Of a stretch of 64,000 nucleotides of DNA, positions 19,095-35,680 are shown in pieces. Position 1 is the stretch's first letter, and each line of letters starts with the position of its first letter. The position numbers and the translations under genes are program-made. This DNA comes from Elusimicrobiota bacterium (GTDB lineage: Bacteria; Elusimicrobiota; Endomicrobiia; Endomicrobiales; Endomicrobiaceae), in contig JAFXOV010000024.1 of NCBI GenBank assembly GCA_017528425.1, forward strand, positions 62,001-126,000, written 5' to 3'. The notes under the pieces were generated by a model. It made no database searches. It was not told the origin of the DNA and saw only the letters and a list, made by a program, of their open reading frames with translations.

Positions 19095-19937
19095 ATGAAA
19101 ACAATAAAACAAAGAATCAAAACAAAATTTCCGATACTGGTAAAAATAATATATTTTCTTCGCGCAATAATATTAAGAAACAAACTTGAATTTATTGAAA
19201 TACATCTTGTTGACAGCTGTAATTTAAAATGTAAAGCATGTACTTCTTTTTCAAACATTACCACAAAAGCCAATTTTATTGATGCAAGATTATTAGGGAT
19301 CAGACTAAGCAAATTGACAAAACTTTTTACAATAGAACAGATACGCCTTGTAGGTGGAGAACCTCTCCTTCACCCTGATATAAACAATGTTCTAAAAATA
19401 GTCAGACAATGTTTGGGGTATTCGCAGATAGAATTGGTTACAAACGGCATTTTACTTAACAAAATGTCAAAAGATTTTTTTGAAACATGTTATAAAAACA
19501 ATATTAATATAATTATATCTCCATATCCTGTTTTAAAAAACAAAGAAGAAATTAAGCAAATTCTTTCGCCGTTTAAAATAAATTATAATTTTTTCCCAAT
19601 GATTTTTTCTTTTTCGGCAAACTTAAATCCAAAAGGAAATTCCAACAAAGAAGAAACTTTTAAAAATTGCAGATATACCCGTTACAAGACATTAAAGGAA
19701 GATAATATTTATACTTGTCCTATATGTGCGTACATTGACCAATACAACGAATATTTTAATAAAAACATACCTATAGGCAAAGGAATAAATATTTATACAA
19801 AATCAAGAAAACAAATTAAGAGTTATTTAAGTGAACCGGAAGAAACTTGTAAATACTGCACAAATTTAACAAAATATATAGATTGGGAATGTTCAAACAC
19901 TCCTAAAGAAACCGATTGGAACGGCAATTATGAATAA
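19095..19937 (+). CDS. Radical SAM protein of polysaccharide loci, copy 1
   Basis: The 280-residue product has the radical SAM CxxxCxxC cluster in CNLKCKAC near residue 43, preceded by FIEIHLVDS, and the SAM-binding GGE in RLVGGEPLLHPD. A C-terminal set of cysteines (NCRYTRY, YTCPICAY, CKYCTNL, ECSN) suggests a second, SPASM-like iron-sulfur site. It ends PKETDWNGNYE. The gene overlaps the next GT2 gene by 8 nt, and the same pairing recurs at 26657-28466. The substrate is not known; a sugar, a lipid-linked glycan or a peptide could all be modified. Confidence 0.8.
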   Translation: MKTIKQRIKTKFPILVKIIYFLRAIILRNKLEFIEIHLVDSCNLKCKACTSFSNITTKANFIDARLLGIRLSKLTKLFTIEQIRLVGGEPLLHPDINNVLKIVRQCLGYSQIELVTNGILLNKMSKDFFETCYKNNINIIISPYPVLKNKEEIKQILSPFKINYNFFPMIFSFSANLNPKGNSNKEETFKNCRYTRYKTLKEDNIYTCPICAYIDQYNEYFNKNIPIGKGINIYTKSRKQIKSYLSEPEETCKYCTNLTKYIDWECSNTPKETDWNGNYE

Positions 19938-22819: not shown

Positions 22820-23845
22820 ATGAATAATATAAAAATATCAGTAATTATCCCTGTATACAATGTAGAACAATATTTAAGACAATGTCTTGATAGTGTTATC
22901 AATCAAACGTTTAAAGATATTGAAATAATTTGTATAAATGACTGTTCTATAGATAATTCCTTAAAGATATTAGAAGAATATCAAAAAAAAGATAACAGAA
23001 TAAAGATTATAGATCTAAAAGAGAACAAAGGAGTTTCATATTCCAGAAATATTGGTTTAAAACTTGCAAAAGCAGAATATGTAACATTTGTTGATTCCGA
23101 TGATTTTGTAAGTAGTAATTATACCGAAATTCTTTATAACAATATTAAGAAATTCGACTATGATGTTTTATGTTGTGACTTCTTTTTATATTATAACGAG
23201 AACTCAGCAAAACATCTTGAACAGAAATCGTTCTGTTATAACACTGATTTTAATACGGTTCAATCAAAACAGAAATTACTTACATACAGACTTATATGGA
23301 GTTCATGGGCAAAAATATATAAAAGAGACTTTCTTGAAAAAAACAAAATCTTCTTCAAAAGAAGGACAATGGAAGATATTTTGTTTATTTATGAAATTAT
23401 TTTAGTTTCGAACAAAGTAAAATTCATAAATGAAAGCATTTATTTTTATAGGCAAGACAGAAAAAGCTCTATTATGAGCAACAAAACCGGTAGATTTTAT
23501 TCTTGTATAGAGTTGTTATACGATATAAAAAATTTATTGATACAGAAGCAACTATTTGAAACATACGAACAACAGTTCTATTCTTATGGATTTTTACTTT
23601 TGGCAGCAGAACTTGAAGTTATAAATCTGCCTAATGAAAAAACCAAACAAGCTCTAATATCTTTAAAGAAAAATTTGTTTGTAAAAAATTCCATAAAAAT
23701 AAAAACCTATGATAAATTCCCTTACAAGATAAGGCTTTTTATTTTTTATTTTTGTTTTAAACACAATATTAATTATAGCTCAATAGGTAAGACATTAAGA
23801 AAATTGTATTCCTTTGTTAAGAGGCAGGATTTTAATGCTAAATAA
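22820..23845 (+). CDS. GT2 family glycosyltransferase, paralogue D
   Basis: The 341-residue product has ISVIIPVYNVEQYLRQCLDSVINQTF, INDCSIDNS and the metal motif FVDSDDF. Over about 115 bases after position 22887 it is almost identical to paralogue A. It starts 3 nt after the rhamnosyltransferase-like gene and its end overlaps the polymerase gene by 11 nt. Confidence 0.85.
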   Translation: MNNIKISVIIPVYNVEQYLRQCLDSVINQTFKDIEIICINDCSIDNSLKILEEYQKKDNRIKIIDLKENKGVSYSRNIGLKLAKAEYVTFVDSDDFVSSNYTEILYNNIKKFDYDVLCCDFFLYYNENSAKHLEQKSFCYNTDFNTVQSKQKLLTYRLIWSSWAKIYKRDFLEKNKIFFKRRTMEDILFIYEIILVSNKVKFINESIYFYRQDRKSSIMSNKTGRFYSCIELLYDIKNLLIQKQLFETYEQQFYSYGFLLLAAELEVINLPNEKTKQALISLKKNLFVKNSIKIKTYDKFPYKIRLFIFYFCFKHNINYSSIGKTLRKLYSFVKRQDFNAK

Positions 23846-25187
23846 TAAAACTTTTAATAAAATTGTAGATATTTTATTTTTATTGATTCCGTTTATTGAC
23901 TTTACATACTCTTTTGACTTTGATTTTGCAGATATAAGACTTTCTTATTTAATATACCTGCTTTATTTTGTAGCAAATATCAATTTAATATTAAAAAAAG
24001 AGCTGATTTATGATTTACTAAAAAAATCAAAATATTTAATAATTATTTTTTCATTTATTATTGCAATCTCAATTGTAAACATTTATTTAAATAATGATAC
24101 TATCTTTCTTTTATCAAAACAAGTTATTATTATTTCTTTTGTTTTTTTCACCACATGGTTATTTTTTTATAAACACAAAAATAACATTCATGAAATATTC
24201 AACTTATATTTAAACATTTCATTTGTTGTGGCATTAATAGGTATCTTTCAGGAATTATCATATTTAATAGGTTTTTCTTATGGCTATGACTTTAGTTATT
24301 GGAAAGCAAAAAGTCAATTAAGTAATGCCGGAATATTTTTTAGAGTTTCTTCCATAGCGGGAGAACCTTCAAATTTAGTTTATGCTTTATCTTTAGCTTT
24401 TTATACGGCATTAGTATGTTTTATTACAAAGCAGGAAAAACCAATACTAAACATTTCTAAAAGCATTGTAATTATATTGTGTTTTGCATTAACTTTTTCT
24501 TTAATCGGATATATTGGTATTGTAATATCTCTTATATTTGTAGCAACAATCTATTTTAAAAGAATTAAAGTTGTTAAGCTTTTAATTGTCTTGTGCTTAT
24601 TTGCTACGTTATTTTGTTTGGGAAGTAATACATTTACGATGAGAATAGCGCAAACTTCATTGGAAATACAAAAAGTGATAAACAAACAAAATTTAAATAA
24701 TGATCAACAGCAACAATGGATTAATCCATCAAGTTATTCAATAATCCTTCAAGCTAAAATAAGTTTTACAAATTTTAAAAAACATTTTCTTTTCGGAACA
24801 GGATTAGGCTCTCATTTGGTAGCTTTTAATAAATATTATGAATTGTTTCACTACGAGAAGGAACAAAAATTATTACATAAACCGGATGCAGCATCCTTGT
24901 TTCTAAGATTATTATCAGAGTTGGGACTTTTTGGAATATTCTTAATAAGTTTCTTCTTATTACGGTTTAATATTTTCTTACCAAAATACAACTCTAATTT
25001 GGATTTTTTTGTGATTTTAAATTATGGATGTTTATTATTTATTATTCTAAGACTTATTAGATGCGGAGTTTATTATGCGGATGGTTTTTTTATTTTTGCG
25101 TTAGTATATTATTACACAAAAAAGTTTTATATAAAAAATAAAAATGGACAAAACAAACAAAATGATTTTTCCGATTCAAATACCTAA
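23835..25187 (+). CDS. O-antigen/polysaccharide polymerase-like membrane protein (Wzy type)
   Basis: The 450-residue product is almost entirely hydrophobic, with ten or more membrane helices and one large loop around residues 275-345 (HKPDAASLFLRLLSELGLFGIF follows it), the layout of the Wzy/O-antigen ligase family. In such loci Wzy joins repeat units on undecaprenyl pyrophosphate at the periplasmic face. I chose the ATG at 23835 because GAGGCAGGA precedes it; a TTG at 23814 gives no better site. The flippase gene overlaps its end by 44 nt. Family level only. Confidence 0.7.
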   Translation: MLNNKTFNKIVDILFLLIPFIDFTYSFDFDFADIRLSYLIYLLYFVANINLILKKELIYDLLKKSKYLIIIFSFIIAISIVNIYLNNDTIFLLSKQVIIISFVFFTTWLFFYKHKNNIHEIFNLYLNISFVVALIGIFQELSYLIGFSYGYDFSYWKAKSQLSNAGIFFRVSSIAGEPSNLVYALSLAFYTALVCFITKQEKPILNISKSIVIILCFALTFSLIGYIGIVISLIFVATIYFKRIKVVKLLIVLCLFATLFCLGSNTFTMRIAQTSLEIQKVINKQNLNNDQQQQWINPSSYSIILQAKISFTNFKKHFLFGTGLGSHLVAFNKYYELFHYEKEQKLLHKPDAASLFLRLLSELGLFGIFLISFFLLRFNIFLPKYNSNLDFFVILNYGCLLFIILRLIRCGVYYADGFFIFALVYYYTKKFYIKNKNGQNKQNDFSDSNT

Positions 25188-26472
25188 TCATTGGAAGGTA
25201 GCAATAAGTGCTTGGAGCTTTAGAATTGTTTCCGCACTTGTGCAGATTATAAGTATTCGGGTATTGTTTAACTATTTGGGAATTGATAGATATGCCATTT
25301 ACGTAATATTATATTCCTTATTACATTGGTGTAATTTATTTGATTGCGGTATAGGAAATTCTTTGCAAAACTATATATCTGAAGCAAGAGTTAAGAACCA
25401 AGATTATTCCAAATATATGACGATTACATTACAAATAGTTACGCTTTTATTCTTATCTTTAATTCTAATACTTTGTTTTGTATCATTGCCGTTACAAAAA
25501 GTAATATTGGCAAAATATTTATTCATTCCCGAACTACAAACTTCAAATTTGGTTTTTGTTATTTGTTCAATTTTCATAACATTAACATTTGTAAATATAA
25601 TTATTAAAGTATATTACGCACTGCAAAAAGGAACTATTCCCAATATTTTACAGTTAATAGCTATAGTTATATCAATGCTTTCAATAGTTTTGTTAAACAA
25701 GTTCTATCATAACAATTCAAGTATATTAAAAGCGTTATTATGTTTTTCTTTGCCGCAATTAATCTTGCTGGGAATACCGTTCTTTTTTACTTTTAAAAAG
25801 CATATAAAAAATATATTTTGTTTTGATTTATCGCTAATAAAAACATTTATTTACAGATCATTAAAATTTACCGGTTTTACGGTAATGTATGTCGCAATTT
25901 TACAGGTTGATTATTTAGTAATGGCACAAACAGTACCATCAAAATCTGTAACAGCTTATAATATTTTTACCAGATTTTTTTCTTTCGGCCTTTTAATATA
26001 TATTGCTTTTCTAAATGCTTTTTGGCCTACATGCTCCGAAATGTTTTACAGGAAAGAGTTAAGAGAAATAAAAAAGCTTTTAAAAAAATATTGTATATTC
26101 GGAATAAGCATTATATGGATTGACATATTTTTTATATTTATATTTCAAAACTTTCTTGTAAAAATATTGGTTTCAGACGACACTATAATTGTTGATACTA
26201 TCTTTTTTATTTTGTTTGCAATTTATGCCGTATTTAGAGTTATAACCGATACTTATAGTGTTTTTTTGGAAAGTATAACCTCTTTAAAAATTTTCTGGTT
26301 TGTTTTACCGATACAACTTATTTTATGTATATGTTTGCAGTATTTCCTTTCGATAAAATACGGAATCAACGGAATAATTCTTGGTTCTCTTCTATCTTTC
26401 ATGCTTACAACTTCTTGGATTTTACCTTATACATCATACAAGATACTAAACAAAGCAGAGGAGCAAAAATAA
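25144..26472 (+). CDS. Polysaccharide flippase (Wzx-like, MOP superfamily)
   Basis: The 442-residue product has about twelve predicted membrane helices, with RYAIYVILYSLLHWCNLFDCGIGNSLQNYISEA near the N-terminus, a pattern common in O-unit flippases. It would move undecaprenyl-linked repeat units across the inner membrane. The start at 25144 lies inside the end of the polymerase gene; an in-frame ATG at 25162 is a possible alternative, and neither has a strong ribosome site. Together with the polymerase and the sugar transferase at 34310 this makes a Wzx/Wzy-dependent pathway. Confidence 0.75.
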   Translation: MDKTNKMIFPIQIPNHWKVAISAWSFRIVSALVQIISIRVLFNYLGIDRYAIYVILYSLLHWCNLFDCGIGNSLQNYISEARVKNQDYSKYMTITLQIVTLLFLSLILILCFVSLPLQKVILAKYLFIPELQTSNLVFVICSIFITLTFVNIIIKVYYALQKGTIPNILQLIAIVISMLSIVLLNKFYHNNSSILKALLCFSLPQLILLGIPFFFTFKKHIKNIFCFDLSLIKTFIYRSLKFTGFTVMYVAILQVDYLVMAQTVPSKSVTAYNIFTRFFSFGLLIYIAFLNAFWPTCSEMFYRKELREIKKLLKKYCIFGISIIWIDIFFIFIFQNFLVKILVSDDTIIVDTIFFILFAIYAVFRVITDTYSVFLESITSLKIFWFVLPIQLILCICLQYFLSIKYGINGIILGSLLSFMLTTSWILPYTSYKILNKAEEQK

Positions 26473-26656: not shown

Positions 26657-27478
26657 ATGCAAAAACTAAGAACTATTTGGGTAAAATTAAAAACCATCAT
26701 TAAAATAATAACCTTAAGACCTTATCTTCGCTATCTTGAGTTTCATATAGCAGATCATTGCAATCTGAAATGTAATGCCTGTACACATTTTTCTAATATA
26801 TCGGAACCCAATATTATAGATGCAAGATTTCTTGAGTTTCGTTTTACCAGATTAAGAGAACTCTTCGGAATTATTATGACAATCAGAATATTGGGAGGAG
26901 AGCCGTTATTACATCCGGATATAATAGAAATTTTATCAAGCAGCAGATTTAATTTTCCTTTTTCAAAAATAGAATTGGTTACAAACGGATTACTGTTAGA
27001 TAAAATGCCGAAAGAATTTTTTGAAGCTTGCCGTAGAAATAAAATTGCAGTATATATATCAAAATACCCCGTAATAGAAAACAAATTGAAAAAAATAAAC
27101 GAACTTCTTTCTTCGTTTAAAATAAAATATTATATTTCCCCAAAGATTATAAACTTTTCCGCAAATTTAAATCCGAAGGGAGATTCCGATAAAGACATAA
27201 CTTTTAAAAATTGCAGGCATAAAATTTGTACTATATTAAGAGAAGATAATATTTACTTATGCCCGATAGCCGCATATATAGACAAATATAACAAATACTT
27301 CAATAAAAATATTCCTGTACCTAAAGGAATAAATATTTATTCTAATTCCGCAAAACAAATTTTGAATTATAAAAAAAATAGCGAAGAAACTTGCAGATAT
27401 TGCACTAATGTAGCAAACTATGTAAACTGGTCATGCTCAAATAATCCCAAAGAAACAGATTGGAACGGTAAAATATAA
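26657..27478 (+). CDS. Radical SAM protein of polysaccharide loci, copy 2
   Basis: The 273-residue product is a clear paralogue of the one at 19095: FHIADHCNLKCNACTHFSNIS with CxxxCxxC, RILGGEPLLHPD, FSANLNPKGDSDKD, and the same C-terminal cysteines (NCRHKIC, YLCPIAAY, CRYCTNV, SCSN) and PKETDWNG ending. One cysteine of the third cluster motif in copy 1 (CPIC) is lost here (CPIA). Like copy 1 it is directly followed by a GT2 gene, 4 nt away. A 184-nt gap upstream shows no gene I can support. Confidence 0.8.
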   Translation: MQKLRTIWVKLKTIIKIITLRPYLRYLEFHIADHCNLKCNACTHFSNISEPNIIDARFLEFRFTRLRELFGIIMTIRILGGEPLLHPDIIEILSSSRFNFPFSKIELVTNGLLLDKMPKEFFEACRRNKIAVYISKYPVIENKLKKINELLSSFKIKYYISPKIINFSANLNPKGDSDKDITFKNCRHKICTILREDNIYLCPIAAYIDKYNKYFNKNIPVPKGINIYSNSAKQILNYKKNSEETCRYCTNVANYVNWSCSNNPKETDWNGKI

Positions 27479-28488: not shown

Positions 28489-29148
28489 TTATTTCTTATT
28501 TAATTTGTTCCTTAGAATTGTAATATAATCTTTGTATTCTTGTTGTTTATTACTTCTACCGAAATTGTTGTTGTGCAATCTTCTGTTTGAAGTTACAACG
28601 GGTATTTTTTTTACTTTGATATTTTTTTGTTGTAATCTTATTTGAAATTCTACAATATCTCCGGCTTTTAATACTTCATCAAAAGTTCCGACTTTATCAA
28701 ACACTTCTTTTTTTATTATGGAACATCCTGCAAGTGCACCGAAATAATTATCGTTTCTTGCTTTCAATTTCCTTTTATCTTCTTCGGATAATTCAGGAGA
28801 AACAAACTCCCTGGACATACTGAAAACAGCCTCAACACCGGAATCTTTTAAAAATTCATTATATAAATTCGATATGCCATTTTCTTCCATAACATCATCG
28901 GAATCAACATACAGAATATACTCACCTTTGGCTTCTTTAAGGCCCGCATTTCTTGTTTTTCCGATATGAGAAAAATTTACTTCTATTGTTTTACAACCTA
29001 AATCTTCGGCAATTTGTTTTGTATTATCCGTACATGAATCGCAAACGACTATTAGTTCCATATCTTGTATATTTTGTTTTTTTACACTTTCTATGGCTTC
29101 CTTAATATATTTAGAAGCATTTTTTGCTGCTATTATTACCGATATCAT
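28489..29148 (-). CDS. Short GT2 family glycosyltransferase
   Basis: The 219-residue product is essentially a bare GT-A domain: MISVIIAAKNASKYIKEAIESV, CDSCTDNT, GKTRNAGLKEAKGEYILYVDSDDVM, and GDIVEFQIRLQQKNIKVKKIP where sister genes have the acceptor-side ED motif. The family length is commonly 250-340. It is the last gene of the operon that contains the PqqD-like and HprK-like genes and overlaps the preceding gene by 4 nt. Confidence 0.85.
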   Translation of the reverse strand: MISVIIAAKNASKYIKEAIESVKKQNIQDMELIVVCDSCTDNTKQIAEDLGCKTIEVNFSHIGKTRNAGLKEAKGEYILYVDSDDVMEENGISNLYNEFLKDSGVEAVFSMSREFVSPELSEEDKRKLKARNDNYFGALAGCSIIKKEVFDKVGTFDEVLKAGDIVEFQIRLQQKNIKVKKIPVVTSNRRLHNNNFGRSNKQQEYKDYITILRNKLNKK

Positions 29149-29828
29149 TTGTTTGAAATTCCTTTTCTTAATATACTCATAATATATTTTGAATATTTTG
29201 GCCTAGCCAATAAAGTTATGTTATTACCATGTAATCTTCTCATATAAAAATTCTTATCAATAAAATGATTCAGATTTTCTCCGTTTTTTTCAAATCTATA
29301 TATGAGTTCGGTATCTTCCCCTGTTTGAAAATCTTCGTCGAAATTACCATATTTTTCAAACAAAGATTTGTTTACCATGGCCGTAGGCAAATGCCTTTTT
29401 TCTAATATCTCTCGTTTTTTTTCGCTGATAGTTATTGCATCTTTTTTAATCTTATCATTATCTATAATATTTTCATATTTTGTAAAAACTATTTGGCAGT
29501 CGGAATGCTCTTTAAAATATTGTATTTGTGTGCTTAGTTTGTCAGGTAACAAATAATCATCGGAATCACAAAATGCTATATATTCCCCTTTCGAGTTTTC
29601 TAACGCTGTATTTCTTGCGAAAGGTATGCCTTTATGTTCTATATAAAAGTATTTTATATCATTATATTCTTTTACTATTTTTTGGGTATTATCTGTTGAA
29701 CCGTCGTCAACAACTATCAATTCTATGTTCTTGTAATTCTGTGCATAAACACTTTCTATTGCCTGACGAATATATTTAGCATTATTGTACGTCGGCATCA
29801 TTACGGATACTAACGGTTCTTTACTCAT
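29145..29828 (-). CDS. Short GT2 family glycosyltransferase, PqqD/HprK operon copy 2
   Basis: The 227-residue product has VSVMMPTYNNAKYIRQAIESVYAQNYKNIELIVVDDGSTDNT, FCDSDDY and GEDTELIYRFEKNG. It is a close paralogue of the gene just upstream (29834), including shared GIPFARN/GISLARN and HFIDKNFYMRRLHGNNIT-like endings, so the pair arose by tandem duplication. It overlaps the following gene by 4 nt and starts 5 nt after the previous one. Confidence 0.85.
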   Translation of the reverse strand: MSKEPLVSVMMPTYNNAKYIRQAIESVYAQNYKNIELIVVDDGSTDNTQKIVKEYNDIKYFYIEHKGIPFARNTALENSKGEYIAFCDSDDYLLPDKLSTQIQYFKEHSDCQIVFTKYENIIDNDKIKKDAITISEKKREILEKRHLPTAMVNKSLFEKYGNFDEDFQTGEDTELIYRFEKNGENLNHFIDKNFYMRRLHGNNITLLARPKYSKYIMSILRKGISNK

Positions 29829-29833
29829 AATTA

Positions 29834-30514
29834 TTATTCTACACCTTTTCTTAAAATAGCTGTAATATATTTAACGGTATCTTGATTATAATTCAAAGTT
29901 ACATTTTTCCCGTGTATTCTTCTTATATAAAATATATCCGGAATTATATGTGAAATATTTACTCCTTTTTTTAAAATCCTGTACAAAAATTCCGTATCTT
30001 CCACTCCGCTGAAATTTTCATCGAAAAGCCCATATTTTTCAAACAGTTCTTTTTTTATAACACTGCTTGGTAAATATTGTTTTAAAAAGTTTTCCATTAG
30101 CTTTTCATGCATTGCCCTTTTATTTGTTTTAAGCTTTTCATCTTCAAAAAAATTTTCATATTTCGTAAAAACTATTTGACAGTCGGGATGTTCTTTAAAA
30201 TATTGCATTTGTGTATTTAATTTTTCAGGCAACCAATAATCGTCGGAATCACAAAACGCTATATATTCTCCATTTGATTTTTCCAATGCTATATTTCTTG
30301 CTAAAGATATTCCTTTATGTTCTATATAAAAATATTTTATATCTTGATACTTTTTTATTATTTCTTTTGTGTTATCGGTTGAGCCGTCATCAATAACTAT
30401 TACTTCTATATTCTTGTAATTCTGCGCATAAATGCTCTCTATTGCCTGGCCTATATATCTGCCATTATTATACGTCGGCATCATCACGGATACTAACGGA
30501 TTATTATTTATCAT
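29834..30514 (-). CDS. Short GT2 family glycosyltransferase, PqqD/HprK operon copy 1
   Basis: The 226-residue product has VSVMMPTYNNGRYIGQAIESIYAQNY, IDDGSTDNT, FCDSDDYW and GVEDTEFLYRILKKG. I use the ATG at 30514, because the 31 residues that would precede it are unlike any GT2 start and lie inside the PqqD-like gene in another frame. With this start it overlaps the PqqD-like gene by 11 nt, which implies translational coupling. Confidence 0.83.
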   Translation of the reverse strand: MINNNPLVSVMMPTYNNGRYIGQAIESIYAQNYKNIEVIVIDDGSTDNTKEIIKKYQDIKYFYIEHKGISLARNIALEKSNGEYIAFCDSDDYWLPEKLNTQMQYFKEHPDCQIVFTKYENFFEDEKLKTNKRAMHEKLMENFLKQYLPSSVIKKELFEKYGLFDENFSGVEDTEFLYRILKKGVNISHIIPDIFYIRRIHGKNVTLNYNQDTVKYITAILRKGVE

Positions 30515-30938
30515 TATTTTCTTCTTCTTTAAAAACTGGTTGCCAACCTTCTTCTTCGTCAACATCGTGTATAGGATCGGCCAACAACATTTCCTGTGCA
30601 TCGGCATATTCGGAAACTTTCATTTCGAATTTATCTTGTTTTATAACGGTTTCATCAAATTTGGGTGTTGCCGAAGATTGGTTATCTTCAACAATTATTT
30701 CTTTTTGTAAAAGGTCACCAACAAAGGCTTTTAATTTTTGGTCTATATCAGCAGGACAACCTTCAATTTTTTTCAGATTATCAATTACAGATTGTATTGA
30801 ACAACCGTTAAGTATAGCCTGAAAAACAACACTACCGCAATTATTCATTGCATAATAAATACCGGTTTCGGAATTTATTATGATAGCAATATTATTTGTA
30901 ACATCCGCAAACATTTTTGATTCGTTCAATTTATACAT
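30504..30938 (-). CDS. PqqD-like (RRE fold) protein with acidic C-terminal tail
   Basis: Residues 1-85 of the 144-residue product look like the PqqD family: a strand-rich start (MFADVTNNIAIIINSETGIYYAMN), NCGSVVFQAILNG, then a helical part with VGDLLQKEIIVED. PqqD domains bind leader peptides of ribosomal peptides or occur beside HprK-like kinases in glycan loci. The extra residues 86-144 are acidic and contain DPIHDVDEEEGWQP at 121-134, unlike plain PqqD. AAGGAG upstream lies inside the end of the HprK-like gene, one base away. Role in this operon is unknown. Confidence 0.72.
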   Translation of the reverse strand: MYKLNESKMFADVTNNIAIIINSETGIYYAMNNCGSVVFQAILNGCSIQSVIDNLKKIEGCPADIDQKLKAFVGDLLQKEIIVEDNQSSATPKFDETVIKQDKFEMKVSEYADAQEMLLADPIHDVDEEEGWQPVFKEEENNDK

Positions 30939-30939
30939 T

Positions 30940-31992
30940 TTATAACTCCTTAATAAACTGTCTTAATATTTTAACATTTTTATCTAAATTTCGTGATAAA
31001 TTTATTTGATAACAATCCAAATCTTTAACAAGAGAAAGAAGTAATTTTACATATTCTTTGTTCAGATGTTGATCCATCTGTTTGGCAGTCGAATAAACGA
31101 ATTGAGTAATTGCTTTTGTATTATTACTTTTTTCAATTGTCGGTTCCGATATATCGGAAATTGACGGAAAAATCATAGCTTTTATCGGTAACGACTTTAC
31201 AAAATTATTATTATATGCGGATATATCAAGTGTATATTTGGTATTGTTATAATTATCGTACATAAATTTAGATTTTAAGTTTGTTAATTTATTATACATT
31301 TGCGGTGTTAATGTAACCATCGAATATATCGGATGAGAGTATAGTATGTTGTTTTCTTTATTTATGATAAGATAGTCGTCGGAAACATATTGAAAATTTT
31401 CCATTAAACAAGTTATTGCCAAAGTAGTTTTGCCGCCACCGCTACTTGCACAAATTAAAACACCTTTGTTGTCTATGCCTACCGAAGCGGCATGTGCAAG
31501 AGAAGAATGAGAAGTTAATGTTGCAGGATATATTGCATTAACAAACAAATGTCCGAATTTTGGTAATATTTTGTCCGAAAAGTCTGATGCGGAAAAATAA
31601 AAAGAATTTGAAAAAATATTTTGCGCATTTAACATATTATGTTCCAGAAAAAATCTCATAATAGTTCGCTTATTATAAACAACGGCTAAATATTTATTAT
31701 TTTGATAAGAACTCGACAAAAAACTTCTTACATCATCTTTCCATATATGTAATACACTGTCGTAGTGATCAAGATTATCTTTTATAGTGAATTTAAAATT
31801 TTGTTCTATTCTGGGAATAATTTCTTCGTTTGCAATTTCTAACTTTATTTTTTTTACTCCCAAATCTAAATATTTCGTAACAACGGAATTTGTTTTTGCC
31901 GCTTTATTGAATTGTTTATCCAAAATGGCATAGTATTTTAAGAGAATATCTTTTTTCCCGTTGAACAAATTTGATTCGTTGTTTAAATTCAT
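30940..31992 (-). CDS. HprK-related P-loop kinase-like protein
   Basis: The 350-residue product has a variable N-terminal 175 residues and then an HPr-kinase-like core: a Walker A loop CASSGGGKTTLA and the acidic site QYVSDDYLII, matching the HprK active-site order. Related proteins sit with PqqD domains in exopolysaccharide and lasso-peptide gene clusters; in the latter some phosphorylate the peptide. What is phosphorylated here is unknown. I use the ATG at 31992, with AGGGTG 8 nt upstream, rather than a TTG at 31998. A promoter is visible upstream at 32029-32057. Confidence 0.72.
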   Translation of the reverse strand: MNLNNESNLFNGKKDILLKYYAILDKQFNKAAKTNSVVTKYLDLGVKKIKLEIANEEIIPRIEQNFKFTIKDNLDHYDSVLHIWKDDVRSFLSSSYQNNKYLAVVYNKRTIMRFFLEHNMLNAQNIFSNSFYFSASDFSDKILPKFGHLFVNAIYPATLTSHSSLAHAASVGIDNKGVLICASSGGGKTTLAITCLMENFQYVSDDYLIINKENNILYSHPIYSMVTLTPQMYNKLTNLKSKFMYDNYNNTKYTLDISAYNNNFVKSLPIKAMIFPSISDISEPTIEKSNNTKAITQFVYSTAKQMDQHLNKEYVKLLLSLVKDLDCYQINLSRNLDKNVKILRQFIKEL

Positions 31993-32028
31993 ATACAAAA
32001 CACCCTATTTTTAATGTTTCATAGAGTA

Positions 32029-32077: not shown

Positions 32078-33058
32078 CTAACGTTTTTGCGCCGACAATT
32101 TGCTTTTTAAAAAGCTTAAAGATATATTCGGGTTGTATTTAGATACGAACATAGAAAAATCGGAAGATTCTTTGATAATTTCAAACAAAAATTTCTCCTG
32201 CTCGTTATAAATATCTCTGTTTTCATTAAATTGTTGCTCGATTTGAGTTAAATATTCTTTTACAAAATTGAATTTGTCTTTATTATCTATAATTAAAGAT
32301 TCCACAAAAAACAATTTAATTCCATTCAAATCTATATTTTGTTTTTTCAAAAATTCATATAGCAATTTAAAACTTTCAATATAATGATATCCTCTGTGTT
32401 TCTTGTGCATAGCAGAATCACCATGTTGACAATAATGATAATAAGGTCCTTTAAAAATACATATTTTTTGATTCATCAAATCACCCGCATAAGAGAAATA
32501 AATATCTTCCGCACCGCATTTTACATTCGGGAACCTTAATTTATACTGTTCAATATATGCCCTTTTATATAATCTTGTCCACACAACAGGAGGAAATAAG
32601 TTTTGAATTTTCTTGGAATCAACGATTTCGAAATCTTTTTTTAAAAAAGTAAATTTACTGTAAGCTTTTTTTGTTCTATCAGAATATTCGTTAACAAAAT
32701 TTGCATTTATTACAACATTGGAATCCGTTTGTTTTATAAGTTTTACACTTTCTTCAATATATGTTTTGTCAATCCAATCATCGGAATCTATTAAATAAAT
32801 ATACTCTCCTGTTGATAAATCCAAGCCTAAATTTCTTGCATTGGAAACACCTTTATTTTGTTTCAAATCAATAATTTTTATTCTTTCATCTTTCAAAGAG
32901 TATTCTTTTAATATTTCTAATGAATTATCCGTAGAACAATCGTTTATACAAATTATTTCAATATCTTTTAATGTTTGGCTTATAATGCTGTTTATACAAT
33001 CTTTCAAGTAGTTGGAAGCATTAAAAACCGGAATTATTACAGAAACTGTTTTTTTCAT
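32078..33058 (-). CDS. GT2 family glycosyltransferase
   Basis: The 326-residue product has VSVIIPVFNASNYLKDCINSI, INDCSTDNS, LIDSDDW and CGAEDIYFSY. It resembles the paralogue family A-D in its catalytic half but has its own C-terminal half. It starts 39 nt after the nucleotidyltransferase-like gene and ends 85 nt before the HprK-like gene. Confidence 0.85.
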   Translation of the reverse strand: MKKTVSVIIPVFNASNYLKDCINSIISQTLKDIEIICINDCSTDNSLEILKEYSLKDERIKIIDLKQNKGVSNARNLGLDLSTGEYIYLIDSDDWIDKTYIEESVKLIKQTDSNVVINANFVNEYSDRTKKAYSKFTFLKKDFEIVDSKKIQNLFPPVVWTRLYKRAYIEQYKLRFPNVKCGAEDIYFSYAGDLMNQKICIFKGPYYHYCQHGDSAMHKKHRGYHYIESFKLLYEFLKKQNIDLNGIKLFFVESLIIDNKDKFNFVKEYLTQIEQQFNENRDIYNEQEKFLFEIIKESSDFSMFVSKYNPNISLSFLKSKLSAQKR

Positions 33059-33097: not shown

Positions 33098-34201
33098 TCA
33101 ACATTCAAACATTTTATTTGCCATTTTTTCAAAAAACAAAGTGTTTATTATAGGAACTCTTTGTATTATTTTTAAATAGAGAAATTGAGCAAACAACTTT
33201 GTTTTGCCGAAAAAATCTGATTTTTCCTTAATTCTTATTTCTTTTATTATTTCTTGTGCTCTATAAAAGCATAAATGATTTTTTGTATAAAGATTAAAGT
33301 CTTTTTGTTCCCGCTTCGATATTTGTATTGAAGAAATTAAATCATGTGGTATCGTATTAGGTAAAAAATACTCAAACAGTTCCAACATTATCTTTATTTG
33401 TGCAAGACTTCCGGTTTCTTTTGCTTTTCGTATTACATTCTCCCAATTTATATTTTTATTGTTTTTTATAATATAAAATGAGTCTAACAACCACGATATC
33501 TTTTTGTAAAAGGTCTGAGAATAAATAATATCATTATAGCCATTATTAAACAATAAAAACAAAAAATCCTCAATGTTTGCAATTAAGATATGCAACCCGT
33601 GAAATTCGTGTTTTATTGCTCTTTTGAAAATATCTTCATACACTTTATCGACATTTTTATTGGAGTTAATAAGAGTATGATAAACGGCTATTCGTTGATT
33701 ATCGTTTTTGAGTATCTCGGTTACATTTCCATATTTCCCGTTTATTTTAAATCCTAACTTTTTACTTATTTCAATAGTTTTACTAAACCGCTCTTTCGGA
33801 ACAGCACAGTCTGCAACATACATCATTCTTGTTTTGTCAGCATCGAACACTTTCATAGAAGAATTTTTTATAAACATAACCGGAATATCATTTTTATTTA
33901 GCTCCGCTACTAACTGCTTTACACTCAATAGCAAAGAAACATTATAGTATTGAAACAATCTCAAAACACCTTTCAACCTCGGTTCAATATTTTTCGGAAT
34001 TTCTATATGCGGATTATTTTGGAATAATTGTGCCAGCAAAAAATTAAACGGAAGAGTTTCTTTTTCTATACTATAATCAAAATCATATAACAAGCTATAA
34101 ACTTCGTCTTTTGTTACAGTATTTGAAGTATATAACTTTAAAAGAAAAGTCTCTTTTTTAGAAAGATTAAGACGTTTTATAAAAAAATTAACATCTAACA
34201 T
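33098..34201 (-). CDS. Nucleotidyltransferase-like protein (NTP_transf_5 type), active site probably degenerate
   Basis: The 367-residue product matches the layout of the uncharacterised nucleotidyltransferase family found with PqqD and HprK-like genes: an N-terminal helical region, LNKNDIPVMFIKNSSMKVFD, RMMYVADCAVPKERFSKTIEISKKLGF, a middle FLFLLFNNGY and SWLLDSFYIIKNNKNINWENVIRKA. In active members R-x(3)-D-x-D-x-L-V is expected where RMMYVADCAVP stands, so one of the two metal-binding Asp residues is missing. The assignment rests on pattern only; function is unknown. Confidence 0.55.
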   Translation of the reverse strand: MLDVNFFIKRLNLSKKETFLLKLYTSNTVTKDEVYSLLYDFDYSIEKETLPFNFLLAQLFQNNPHIEIPKNIEPRLKGVLRLFQYYNVSLLLSVKQLVAELNKNDIPVMFIKNSSMKVFDADKTRMMYVADCAVPKERFSKTIEISKKLGFKINGKYGNVTEILKNDNQRIAVYHTLINSNKNVDKVYEDIFKRAIKHEFHGLHILIANIEDFLFLLFNNGYNDIIYSQTFYKKISWLLDSFYIIKNNKNINWENVIRKAKETGSLAQIKIMLELFEYFLPNTIPHDLISSIQISKREQKDFNLYTKNHLCFYRAQEIIKEIRIKEKSDFFGKTKLFAQFLYLKIIQRVPIINTLFFEKMANKMFEC

Positions 34202-34309: not shown

Positions 34310-35680
34310 ATGTTTATAAAAAACAAAAATTTTCCATTTATATTAGCTTTACTGTTAACGGATTGCATAAGTTTTATGCTGTCTTTTTTGGTAGCTTTTT
34401 ATTTTAGATTTTACATTTTAAACACAACTGTTATTCACTCTTTCAATCAATATTTAACAATATCTGTTTTTTTGGTTCCTATATGGATATTATTCGTTAA
34501 TTTTTTCATAGGATATAAATTATTTTATATATCAAAATTTAATTTGTTTATAAAAGTCTTAAGGACATCTACGGTCTTTATTATTTTTATTCTTGCTGCG
34601 GTTTTTATTATTAAAAACGATTCCTCCAGATTATTTATGTTTTTTGTTTGGCTTAATTTAATATTATTTACATCCTGTTTCAGGTATATTCTTAAAAGAA
34701 TAATCGCATATATAATATACAAACTGAACATAAGAAACAACTTGTTGGTAATAGGTAAAAAAGTAAGAAAATATAAAAAATTTTTTAACAATATCTATAT
34801 AAACAAGGTTTTTTATTATCCGTATCAAATGGAAGCAAAAAACGTAGAGAATTTAAAATATTTATCAATCAAAAAAAACATTAAAGATATAATTATTACG
34901 AATTATTCTTTAAAAGATACAGAATTTTTATCATTATGCGATTGGGCACAAACAAATGATATTAATATAAAAATTTTACCGAATGAAGTTCAAATGACAA
35001 AGGATAAAATCGTTTTGGATGATACGTTAGGCATTCCGGTTGTATTTTTAGTATCTACCCCTGTAAAAGATTTTGATTATTTTTTAAAAAGAATATTAGA
35101 TATTATTTTCTCTTTAATTTTATTGATTCTTTTATTGCCTGTATTTATAATCATTTCTATTTGTATAAAATTGGAAAGTAAAGGTCCTATTTTGTATAAA
35201 CAAATAAGAATCGGTTATAAAAGACAAAAATTTTACTGTTATAAATTCAGAAGCATGTGTGAAAACGCAGAAGAACAGCTGGAAGAATTAAAAAAAGATA
35301 ATGACACCGTTTTTTTTAAAATGAAAAACGACCCGAGAATTACCAAAATAGGCAAATTTATTAGGAAATACAGTATAGATGAATTACCACAACTTTTCAA
35401 TGTACTAAAAGGAGAAATGTCTCTTGTAGGGCCAAGACCTATGCTTGAAGAAGAAATGATAAAAATAGAAAAAAGATATCACAATTATAATTTAAGTAAA
35501 CTATTCAAAGTTATTCCGGGTATAACAGGCTTATGGCAAGTATCGGGCAGAAGCATTCTTAATGATGAAAAAAAATTAGAACTTGAAATTTTTTATATCG
35601 ATAACTGGTCTTTAAATTTTGATATAAAAATATTGTTAAAAACCATAGTGGTTGTACTTTTCCATAGAGGAGCTTTTTAG
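34310..35680 (+). CDS. Polyprenyl-phosphate sugar phosphotransferase (WbaP/WcaJ family)
   Basis: The enzyme puts the first sugar-1-phosphate on undecaprenyl phosphate to start a repeat unit. The 456-residue product has four or five N-terminal membrane helices, a cytoplasmic nucleotide-binding-like middle, and a C-terminal bacterial sugar transferase domain: KRILDIIFSLILLILLLPVF, KFRSMC, DPRITKIGKFIRKYSIDELPQLFNV, GEMSLVGPRPM, ITGLWQVSGR. The sugar is not predictable. It stands alone on the plus strand, divergent from the nucleotidyltransferase-like gene, and is followed by a strong terminator that closes the glycan locus. Confidence 0.92.
   Translation: MFIKNKNFPFILALLLTDCISFMLSFLVAFYFRFYILNTTVIHSFNQYLTISVFLVPIWILFVNFFIGYKLFYISKFNLFIKVLRTSTVFIIFILAAVFIIKNDSSRLFMFFVWLNLILFTSCFRYILKRIIAYIIYKLNIRNNLLVIGKKVRKYKKFFNNIYINKVFYYPYQMEAKNVENLKYLSIKKNIKDIIITNYSLKDTEFLSLCDWAQTNDINIKILPNEVQMTKDKIVLDDTLGIPVVFLVSTPVKDFDYFLKRILDIIFSLILLILLLPVFIIISICIKLESKGPILYKQIRIGYKRQKFYCYKFRSMCENAEEQLEELKKDNDTVFFKMKNDPRITKIGKFIRKYSIDELPQLFNVLKGEMSLVGPRPMLEEEMIKIEKRYHNYNLSKLFKVIPGITGLWQVSGRSILNDEKKLELEIFYIDNWSLNFDIKILLKTIVVVLFHRGAF

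Follow-up and report, generated by a model that had tools for sequence, protein, structure and literature searches.

Gene clusters that encode a precursor-recognition element (RRE) together with an HprK-like kinase and a nucleotidyltransferase-like (NTP-transferase) protein are known from pathways for ribosomally synthesized and post-translationally modified peptides (RiPPs); the papers cited here are drawn on in part. In the LPP RiPPs reported in 2026, LppK phosphorylates Ser3 of LppA bound by the RRE protein LppB, and the genes lie in capsule loci; LppN was inactive in the test host, for which the authors blame a missing partner, and kinase/RRE/NTP-transferase sets occur in the capsule loci of many Bacilli, where their role is stated to be unknown (PMC13381572). 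In the lasso peptide clusters of paeninodin and pseudomycoidin, a PqqD-like B1 protein accompanies an HprK-like kinase with a His-Lys-Asp-Asp motif and a nucleotidyltransferase, and PsmN is needed for placing one or two hexoses on the phosphoserine of pseudomycoidin (PMC9266682, PMC8498205). Here, we describe a cassette of an HprK-like kinase, a PqqD-like protein, and short family 2 glycosyltransferases (GT2s) in a 64,000-nucleotide stretch of an Elusimicrobiota genome (the window; locus label G000:C34:62001-126000), whose closest named relatives are Candidatus Ruminimicrobiellum (genus description, PMC11257099) and other rumen Elusimicrobia. The initial annotation of this DNA had linked the gene group to peptide phosphorylation, which the known sets do perform (PMC13381572, PMC9266682), and had called it unexplained, a description overtaken by the biochemical frame that the LPP RiPPs and pseudomycoidin supply. 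As judged by sequence comparison, the kinase, a PqqD-like protein with a strongly conserved C-terminal tail, and two short GT2s constitute a module shared by two phyla, which suggests an undescribed route by which sugars are built up on a phosphorylated peptide or protein.

Organization and conservation of the cassette

The cassette genes stand in a minus-strand row of seven, listed here from the first gene of the operon with window coordinates.

33098..34201 (-), NTP5, NTP_transf_5 protein, first operon gene (PF14907, 66.9 bits; cut-off 31.2)
32078..33058 (-), GT2d, GT2 between NTP5 and the kinase (PF00535)
30940..31998 (-), HprK-like kinase, TTG start, with an ATG at 31989 (TIGR04352, 36.2 bits; PF07475, E 3.7e-5)
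30504..30938 (-), PqqD-like RRE protein, 144 amino acids (PF05402, 25.7 bits)
30525..30635 (-), codons of the PqqD C-terminal tail, residues 102-138, DKFEMKVSEYADAQEMLLADPIHDVDEEEGWQPVFKE (column conservation)
29834..30514 (-), GT2c, short GT2, cassette core (PF00535, 127.3 bits)
29145..29828 (-), GT2b, short GT2, paralogue of GT2c at 63% (PF00535)
28489..29148 (-), GT2a, short GT2, cassette core (PF00535; identities across five genomes)

The genes had been described as joined by overlaps or gaps of 1-5 nt, and the open reading frame (ORF) coordinates and Pfam matches bear this out: the kinase and PqqD are 1 nt apart, PqqD and GT2c overlap by 11 nt, GT2c and GT2b are separated by 5 nt, and GT2b and GT2a overlap by 4 nt. 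The nucleotidyltransferase-like protein expected of such a group is also present, as NTP5; the operon begins with it, upstream of the genes originally noted, and GT2d lies between it and the kinase. A longer ORF (to 30607) was rejected as the start of GT2c because the upstream frame in a sister genome (G013) is a different one. Promoter and terminator sites were no commoner than in shuffled sequences.

A core of NTP5, HprK-like kinase, PqqD, GT2c, and GT2a is common to five rumen Endomicrobiaceae species of two genera (the window genome, G001, G003, G006, and G013). Strong relatives of the kinase (E <= 1e-110) were found in 5 of 99 genomes, the window genome counted, with weak matches in three more, and a profile search of the order Endomicrobiales recovered the kinase in 5 of 83 genomes. 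PqqD was strongly matched in the same five of the 99 genomes, with two weak matches besides, and gave nine matches (five strong and four weak) in 284 genomes that were at least 80% complete. GT2a was again present in these five, and a contig of 3.2 kb in G026, with no kinase found there, carries a further relative (52%). The order sugar transferase, NTP5, kinase, PqqD, GT2c, GT2a is complete in G003 and G006, with the sugar transferase divergent from the rest; in G001 a contig end cuts off the start of NTP5 and the sugar transferase side, and in G013 PqqD and GT2a are on separate contigs. A PF02397 sugar transferase adjoins the cassette in all four assembled loci having that side. Because this core order recurs in sister loci in which the remaining glycan locus is reshuffled, the gene row is not a product of chance.

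The cassette is accessory, being present in 4 of the 11 genomes of the genus, 8 of which have the sugar transferase; in G004 and G005, the latter stands beside other genes and the cassette is absent from that place, and in G002 contig ends limit the reading of its surroundings. Identity to the window copy was 74-83% for PqqD, 70-91% for GT2a (68-92% in pairwise comparisons of the five genomes), 73-85% for GT2c (G001, G003, and G006), 56-64% for NTP5, and 50-54% for the kinase. Nonsynonymous (dN, 0.04-0.20) and synonymous (dS, 0.7-1.5) divergence of PqqD and GT2a indicated purifying selection. The predicted co-occurrence of kinase, PqqD, and GT2 genes was therefore seen in five Elusimicrobiota genomes, and it extends to a plasmid of Crinalium (see below).

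The three short GT2s next to the kinase and PqqD are not equivalent: GT2c and GT2a are part of the core, as the initial annotation implied for all three, and GT2b is not. All three match PF00535 (88-127 bits) and carry DxDD motifs. GT2b is absent from G001, G003, and G006, and a partial gene of the GT2c/GT2b type in G013 is equally close to both. GT2d is an insert unique to the window genome, at a place that lacks it in the sister loci; its relative in G001 (70%) lies elsewhere, 3' of GT2a. For these reasons, the core is limited to NTP5, the kinase, PqqD, GT2c, and GT2a.

The PqqD-like protein and its tail

Residues 1-84 of the PqqD-like protein are an RRE. The PF05402 score exceeds the cut-off of 23.4, and in a fold search covering residues 1-118, the AlphaFold2 model (mean predicted local distance difference test score [pLDDT], 62.8) was most similar to the lasso B1 proteins TbiB1 (Z 11.0; root-mean-square deviation 2.8 over 83 residues) and TfuB1 (Z 10.2). 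The RRE is followed by a variable linker, in which 3 of 17 columns are invariant, and then by the tail (residues 102-138), with the motif ...LLxDPIHDVDxxxGWQP.... Among the five Elusimicrobiota proteins, 33 of the 37 tail columns were invariant, compared with 50 of the 84 RRE columns; when the Crinalium protein was added, the counts were 16 of 37 and 11 of 84, respectively. The tail is thus more conserved than the RRE, whether the comparison is kept to the phylum (p 0.0012) or spans both phyla (p 0.0006). Where invariant residues had degenerate codons, synonymous variation occurred at 16 of 30 in the tail and 29 of 48 in the RRE. The overlap with GT2c was rejected as the source of this pattern, since GT2c is not continuous with the frame that overlaps the tail in G013, and since synonymous codons vary; as read from these alignments, the tail is conserved at the protein level.

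The tail matched no Pfam or NCBIfam model, and no publication with the strings DPIHEV or DPIHDV was found in a search that took in few subscription papers and no bioRxiv preprints. Two RRE surveys, consulted in excerpt, were looked through for mentions of the kinase or the tail (PMC12710340, PMC7470986). Outside the cassette PqqDs, the motif was matched only twice in 340 genomes of the phylum, in antisense frames and in no PqqD; it gave two unrelated records at E 10 in a phage collection and no match in viral contigs.

The tail and the GT2s are found together in all six cassettes, and none of the four tail-less PqqD-kinase pairs examined (G070, G077, G199, and G243) lies beside GT2c or GT2a. 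This distribution suggests that the tail serves the GT2s. The G199 contig ends at the pair, and the G077 kinase-like gene is so called from its position and a P-loop-type match only. Three tail-less pairs have a radical SAM gene, and two of those also have a signal-peptidase-like gene. In these two class-level relatives, G070 (L087:5681-8353) and G077 (L038:1-2638), genes for an HprK-like protein, a tail-less PqqD (87-89 amino acids), a radical SAM/SPASM protein, and a short peptidase of the S24/S26 type form a row near dapA, which is an LPP-like set with an added radical SAM enzyme; the signal peptidase I model TIGR02228 (cut-off 51.85) gave the L087 peptidase 26.0 bits. In G243 (L089:4501-8186), radical SAM, PqqD (92 amino acids), FabD-like, and HprK-like kinase genes share one strand, and the gene convergent with the kinase encodes a different type of GT2. 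In G199 (L088:5863-6983), the HprK-like kinase gene overlaps the PqqD gene, directly downstream of pilin-like genes.

A cassette on a cyanobacterial plasmid

The cassette proteins were compared by tblastn with 72,556 plasmid records, a search confined to plasmids, which hold a small share of cyanobacterial DNA. It led to one further cassette.

NC_019735, 5896-17248, cassette on Crinalium epipsammum plasmid pCRI9333.04

This record was the top match for each of four proteins, PqqD, the kinase, GT2c, and GT2a, and the four matches fall within approximately 6 kb. It was the best of four records for the kinase (19% identity over 95%, E 4e-4) and the sole record for PqqD (E 8e-7); for GT2a, it scored 124 bits, with the runner-up at 81 (74 records), and for GT2c 171 bits, the best of 930 records. 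Among the 15 of these 930 GT2c matches that were listed, the next were Butyrivibrio (164 bits, summed over two pieces) and Oscillatoria (141 bits, a single piece). The Crinalium PqqD ends in CFEKPMLEKFTDMEDLLLLDPIHEVDVEAGWPNAKTA, which has the same tail motif, and when the window tail alone was the query, the only place matched among the plasmids was the NC_019735 cassette (E 0.5). NTP5 matched nothing in the plasmid collection; the Crinalium gene between PqqD and the kinase is a PF14907 member (66.0 bits). Because a single plasmid tops the matches of four cassette proteins and its PqqD bears the same tail, the kinase, the tailed PqqD, and the two short GT2s are a cross-phylum module at the level of sequence.

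Like the Elusimicrobiota cassette, the Crinalium cluster has a tailed PqqD, an NTP5, an HprK-like kinase, and two GT2s of 235-237 amino acids. It differs in gene order and in its extra genes, which encode an FkbM methyltransferase, an oxidoreductase, an SMP-30 protein, a TPR protein, a second and intact NTP5, and an ATP-binding cassette (ABC) transporter. No published description of it was found. The GT2c matches in Oscillatoria, Nostoc, and Gloeothece were rejected as cassettes, since PqqD, kinase, and NTP5 are all missing from the annotated stretch, as was the Butyrivibrio match, a lasso cluster with a cyclase and B2. In one Butyrivibrio lasso cluster, PqqD (approximately 82 amino acids) is too short for the tail.

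The kinase and NTP5

The initial annotation had proposed membership of the kinase in HprK-related kinase A and of the PqqD-like protein in the HPr-rel-A PqqD family, and neither assignment held. Of the NCBIfam models, HprK-related kinase A matched the kinase best (E 3.3e-9), at 36.2 bits against a curated cut-off of 200. For PqqD, the HPr-rel-A model was unlisted at E <= 1, where only NF033530, NF033536, and TIGR04248 appeared, all below their cut-offs. By the families' own cut-offs, both proteins consequently lie outside these NCBI families. The kinase matched the HPr kinase C-terminal domain (PF07475) at 23.8 bits, with the gathering cut-off at 33.3, and from this similarity is likely to be homologous to that domain. 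When aligned with the solved HPr(Ser) kinase 3tqf, it has the His, the P-loop Lys, and the Asp-Asp, and this motif of HprK-like peptide kinases (PMC9266682) is kept in all six cassette kinases.

Divergence is greatest in the window kinase, which has 51 private changes compared with 4-12 in the other copies, and relative-rate tests on it were significant. Accelerated evolution is not separable here from exchange, because the G001 and G013 kinases are closer to each other than kinship predicts: the G001 kinase (L013:623-1672) is nearer to that of G013, of the other genus (L014:6895-7947; 78%), than to that of G006, of its own genus (71%). These identities point to species having swapped cassette genes. 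In G060 (L015) and G064 (L016), weak HprK-like relatives lie beside a GT2-like gene, near similar proteins of approximately 510 amino acids, and another in G018 (L017) lies beside a different gene; their arrangement is unlike that of the cassette.

NTP5 is clearly a PF14907 protein. In the window copy, which keeps a full reading frame, Gly113 is replaced by Asn (33863-33865) and the first Asp of the DxD motif, Asp129, by Val (33815-33817). At these motif columns, Gly, Arg, Asp, and Asp are kept by all 21 other homologues from the phylum in an alignment of the best 22 of 27 profile-recovered rows, five short and distant proteins being excluded; the G001 copy is truncated before the motif. Having neither the catalytic Gly nor the full DxD of nucleotidyltransferases, the window NTP5 is probably without catalysis; its step may have been lost or replaced, and a role as a binding partner is another possibility. 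In the Crinalium NTP1, beside the kinase, Asn and His replace the two Asp, and the second, intact NTP5 is nearby. The window genome also has a second NTP5 (27% identical) in a separate locus, which is present in G002, where no cassette was found.

Surroundings of the cassette and search for a precursor

The cassette was said to sit within a complete Wzx/Wzy locus, and the neighbouring genes agree.

34310..35680 (+), initiating bacterial sugar transferase, divergent from the operon (PF02397)
26657..27478 (+), small radical SAM protein, convergent with GT2a (PF04055, 31.5 bits)
25144-26472, Wzx
23814-25187, Wzy_C protein

The locus also holds a UDP-galactopyranose mutase, many GT2s, and a second small radical SAM protein (19095-19937), which is 58% related to that at 26657-27478. 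In G003, a 3312-amino-acid ORF lies approximately 8 kb past the glycan locus (L010:8063-18001).

No precursor conserved among three cassette loci was found in their intergenic spaces; some pairs of small ORFs matched, none of them a conserved candidate inside the cassette, and the strongest pair (window, approximately 39.1 kb) is presumably a translated tRNA. An LPP-type precursor with a YxxPxVLxHQ-type leader was not found at the level of the locus, and in the window locus every short ORF that carries [FYW]xxPx[LVIFA] runs antisense to a called gene. Neither an SpI-like peptidase nor an MsbA-like exporter was among the scanned neighbours of the RRE gene, and neither a macrolactam cyclase (asparagine-synthase-like) nor a B2 peptidase was among its Pfam-scanned neighbours.

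Discussion

The cassette resembles the lpp cluster of Paenibacillus alginolyticus in combining a discrete RRE, an HprK-like kinase, and an NTP transferase in a capsule locus. The lpp cluster, as described in the sections of the report used here, has the precursor LppA, the SpI-like peptidase LppS, and an MsbA-like exporter, none of which was found in the window operon (PMC13381572); the window operon in turn is set apart by the conserved tail of its RRE and a pair of dedicated short GT2s. Compared with the lasso clusters, which share the PqqD-like B1 protein, the kinase motif, and the nucleotidyltransferase, the cassette was found to have no lasso cyclase, B2 peptidase, or precursor. It is also distinct from the NCBIfam group of HprK-related kinase A and HPr-rel-A PqqD, which gave the best match of the kinase at far below the cut-off.

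We interpret the cassette, with a probability of roughly 0.4, as an adaptor-centred phospho-glycosylation module. By analogy with LPP and pseudomycoidin, the PqqD-like RRE would bind an acceptor peptide or protein encoded elsewhere, and the HprK-like kinase would phosphorylate a serine on the bound acceptor. GT2c and GT2a, gathered by the PqqD tail as their dock, would then build or extend sugars on the acceptor or its phosphate. An intact NTP5 would add the first sugar, the window NTP5 being a non-catalytic or vestigial partner, and the locus that makes the Wzx/Wzy glycan would also make the product. The initial annotation had pointed to a link between peptide or carrier recognition, phosphorylation, and glycosylation; that phosphorylation and glycosylation meet on one shared substrate is our inference.

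Several observations weigh against this interpretation. Searches of the operon, of the spaces between genes at three loci, and of the Crinalium cluster turned up no precursor gene. The kinase falls short of all curated cut-offs, and its structure model (pLDDT 53.6) was too poor for a fold search. NTP5 is without its catalytic residues both here and in the Crinalium NTP1, and the transfer of a sugar to the phosphate may therefore not occur. The tail was ruled out as a conserved serine phosphoacceptor because it has no invariant Ser or Thr, the specificity of the GT2s is not readable from their sequences, and the evidence from Crinalium is a single record. Furthermore, kinase, nucleotidyltransferase, and GT2 genes are already known near rumen lasso clusters (PMC7533575, consulted in part). 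In view of this precedent, the sub-cut-off kinase, and the dead-looking NTP5, the cassette is best regarded as a known theme in a new form with new parts.

It is unlikely that the cassette is a degenerate or horizontally acquired remnant of a lasso- or LPP-type cluster, carried as a passenger in the capsule locus, with the kinase and NTP5 decaying and the GT2s serving as ordinary capsule enzymes. The lost catalytic residues of the window NTP5, the many private changes of its kinase, the presence of the cassette in only half as many genomes of the genus as the sugar transferase, and the failure to find a precursor, cyclase, or peptidase would all follow. However, PqqD and GT2a are under purifying selection, the kinase motif is intact in every cassette, and the same tailed set would not persist as junk in a second phylum.

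A slightly less probable explanation is that PqqD is an RRE fused to its own precursor, in which a leader-like start of the tail precedes a core, DPIH[DE]VD...GW.P, that is modified by the enzymes and possibly released. The tail is the sole peptide-like conserved segment in the window and Crinalium clusters, and its motif is otherwise confined to the two antisense matches in the 340 genomes of the phylum. Its beginning looks leader-like (FEKPML... in Crinalium and FEMKVS... in the window), AlphaFold2 places a strand, at low confidence, at PqqD residues 106-110, and the F-x-x-P-x-L of the Crinalium tail is near the [Y/W]xxPx[L/V/I/F/A] motif bound by lasso RREs. On the other hand, an FxxPxL arising by chance within approximately 40 residues is not rare, and none of the five Elusimicrobiota proteins has the leader-motif proline. 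Variation is usual in RiPP cores, whereas this one is nearly invariant; it offers the HprK-like kinase no invariant Ser or Thr, no peptidase was seen in the window operon, and no library model matches the tail. The bolder form of this idea is quite improbable: the tailed PqqD would be a self-presenting RiPP of RRE, leader, and near-invariant core, modified in cis by the HprK-like enzyme and the two dedicated GT2s, possibly at residues other than Ser or Thr, and employed to prime or anchor surface glycans in Elusimicrobiota and cyanobacteria.

We consider it a little more improbable again that the kinase and NTP5 have a sugar or lipid carrier, instead of a peptide, as their substrate, with the PqqD fold reused as a subunit-binding domain, to give a phosphosugar branch of the Wzx/Wzy polysaccharide. 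Such a role would suit the proximity of the initiating sugar transferase, Wzx, and Wzy_C and the lack of a detected precursor gene, but the RRE-associated HprK-like kinases studied to date act on peptides, according to the portions of the reports used (PMC13381572, PMC9266682), the window PqqD model best matches leader-bound RRE structures, and the annotated genes of the Crinalium cassette include an ABC transporter and no Wzx or Wzy.

Least likely of all is a radical SAM RiPP, in which PqqD would work for the radical SAM protein encoded nearby, on the model of the PQQ and SynChlorMet-type systems. In its favour, G003, G006, and G013 each have a radical SAM gene beside and convergent with GT2a, the window has one near GT2a, and HprK-like, PqqD, and radical SAM genes are combined in other Elusimicrobiota. 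Against it, the protein beside the G013 cassette is of a different family, none is annotated in the Crinalium cluster, and a relative of the window protein occurs in a glycan locus of the cassette-less G026. Relatives of the window protein (65-68%) adjoin GT2a in G003 and G006, with a GT2 intervening in the window, and it is possible that this protein is an accessory partner of the cassette.

The significance of the cassette is that it ties the kinase/RRE/NTP-transferase set to two specific short GT2s and a conserved tail in two phyla, so that the suspected link between peptide phosphorylation and glycan building becomes directly testable. The signature LLxDPIH[DE]VD...GW.P at the end of PqqD can be used to find further loci of this kind.

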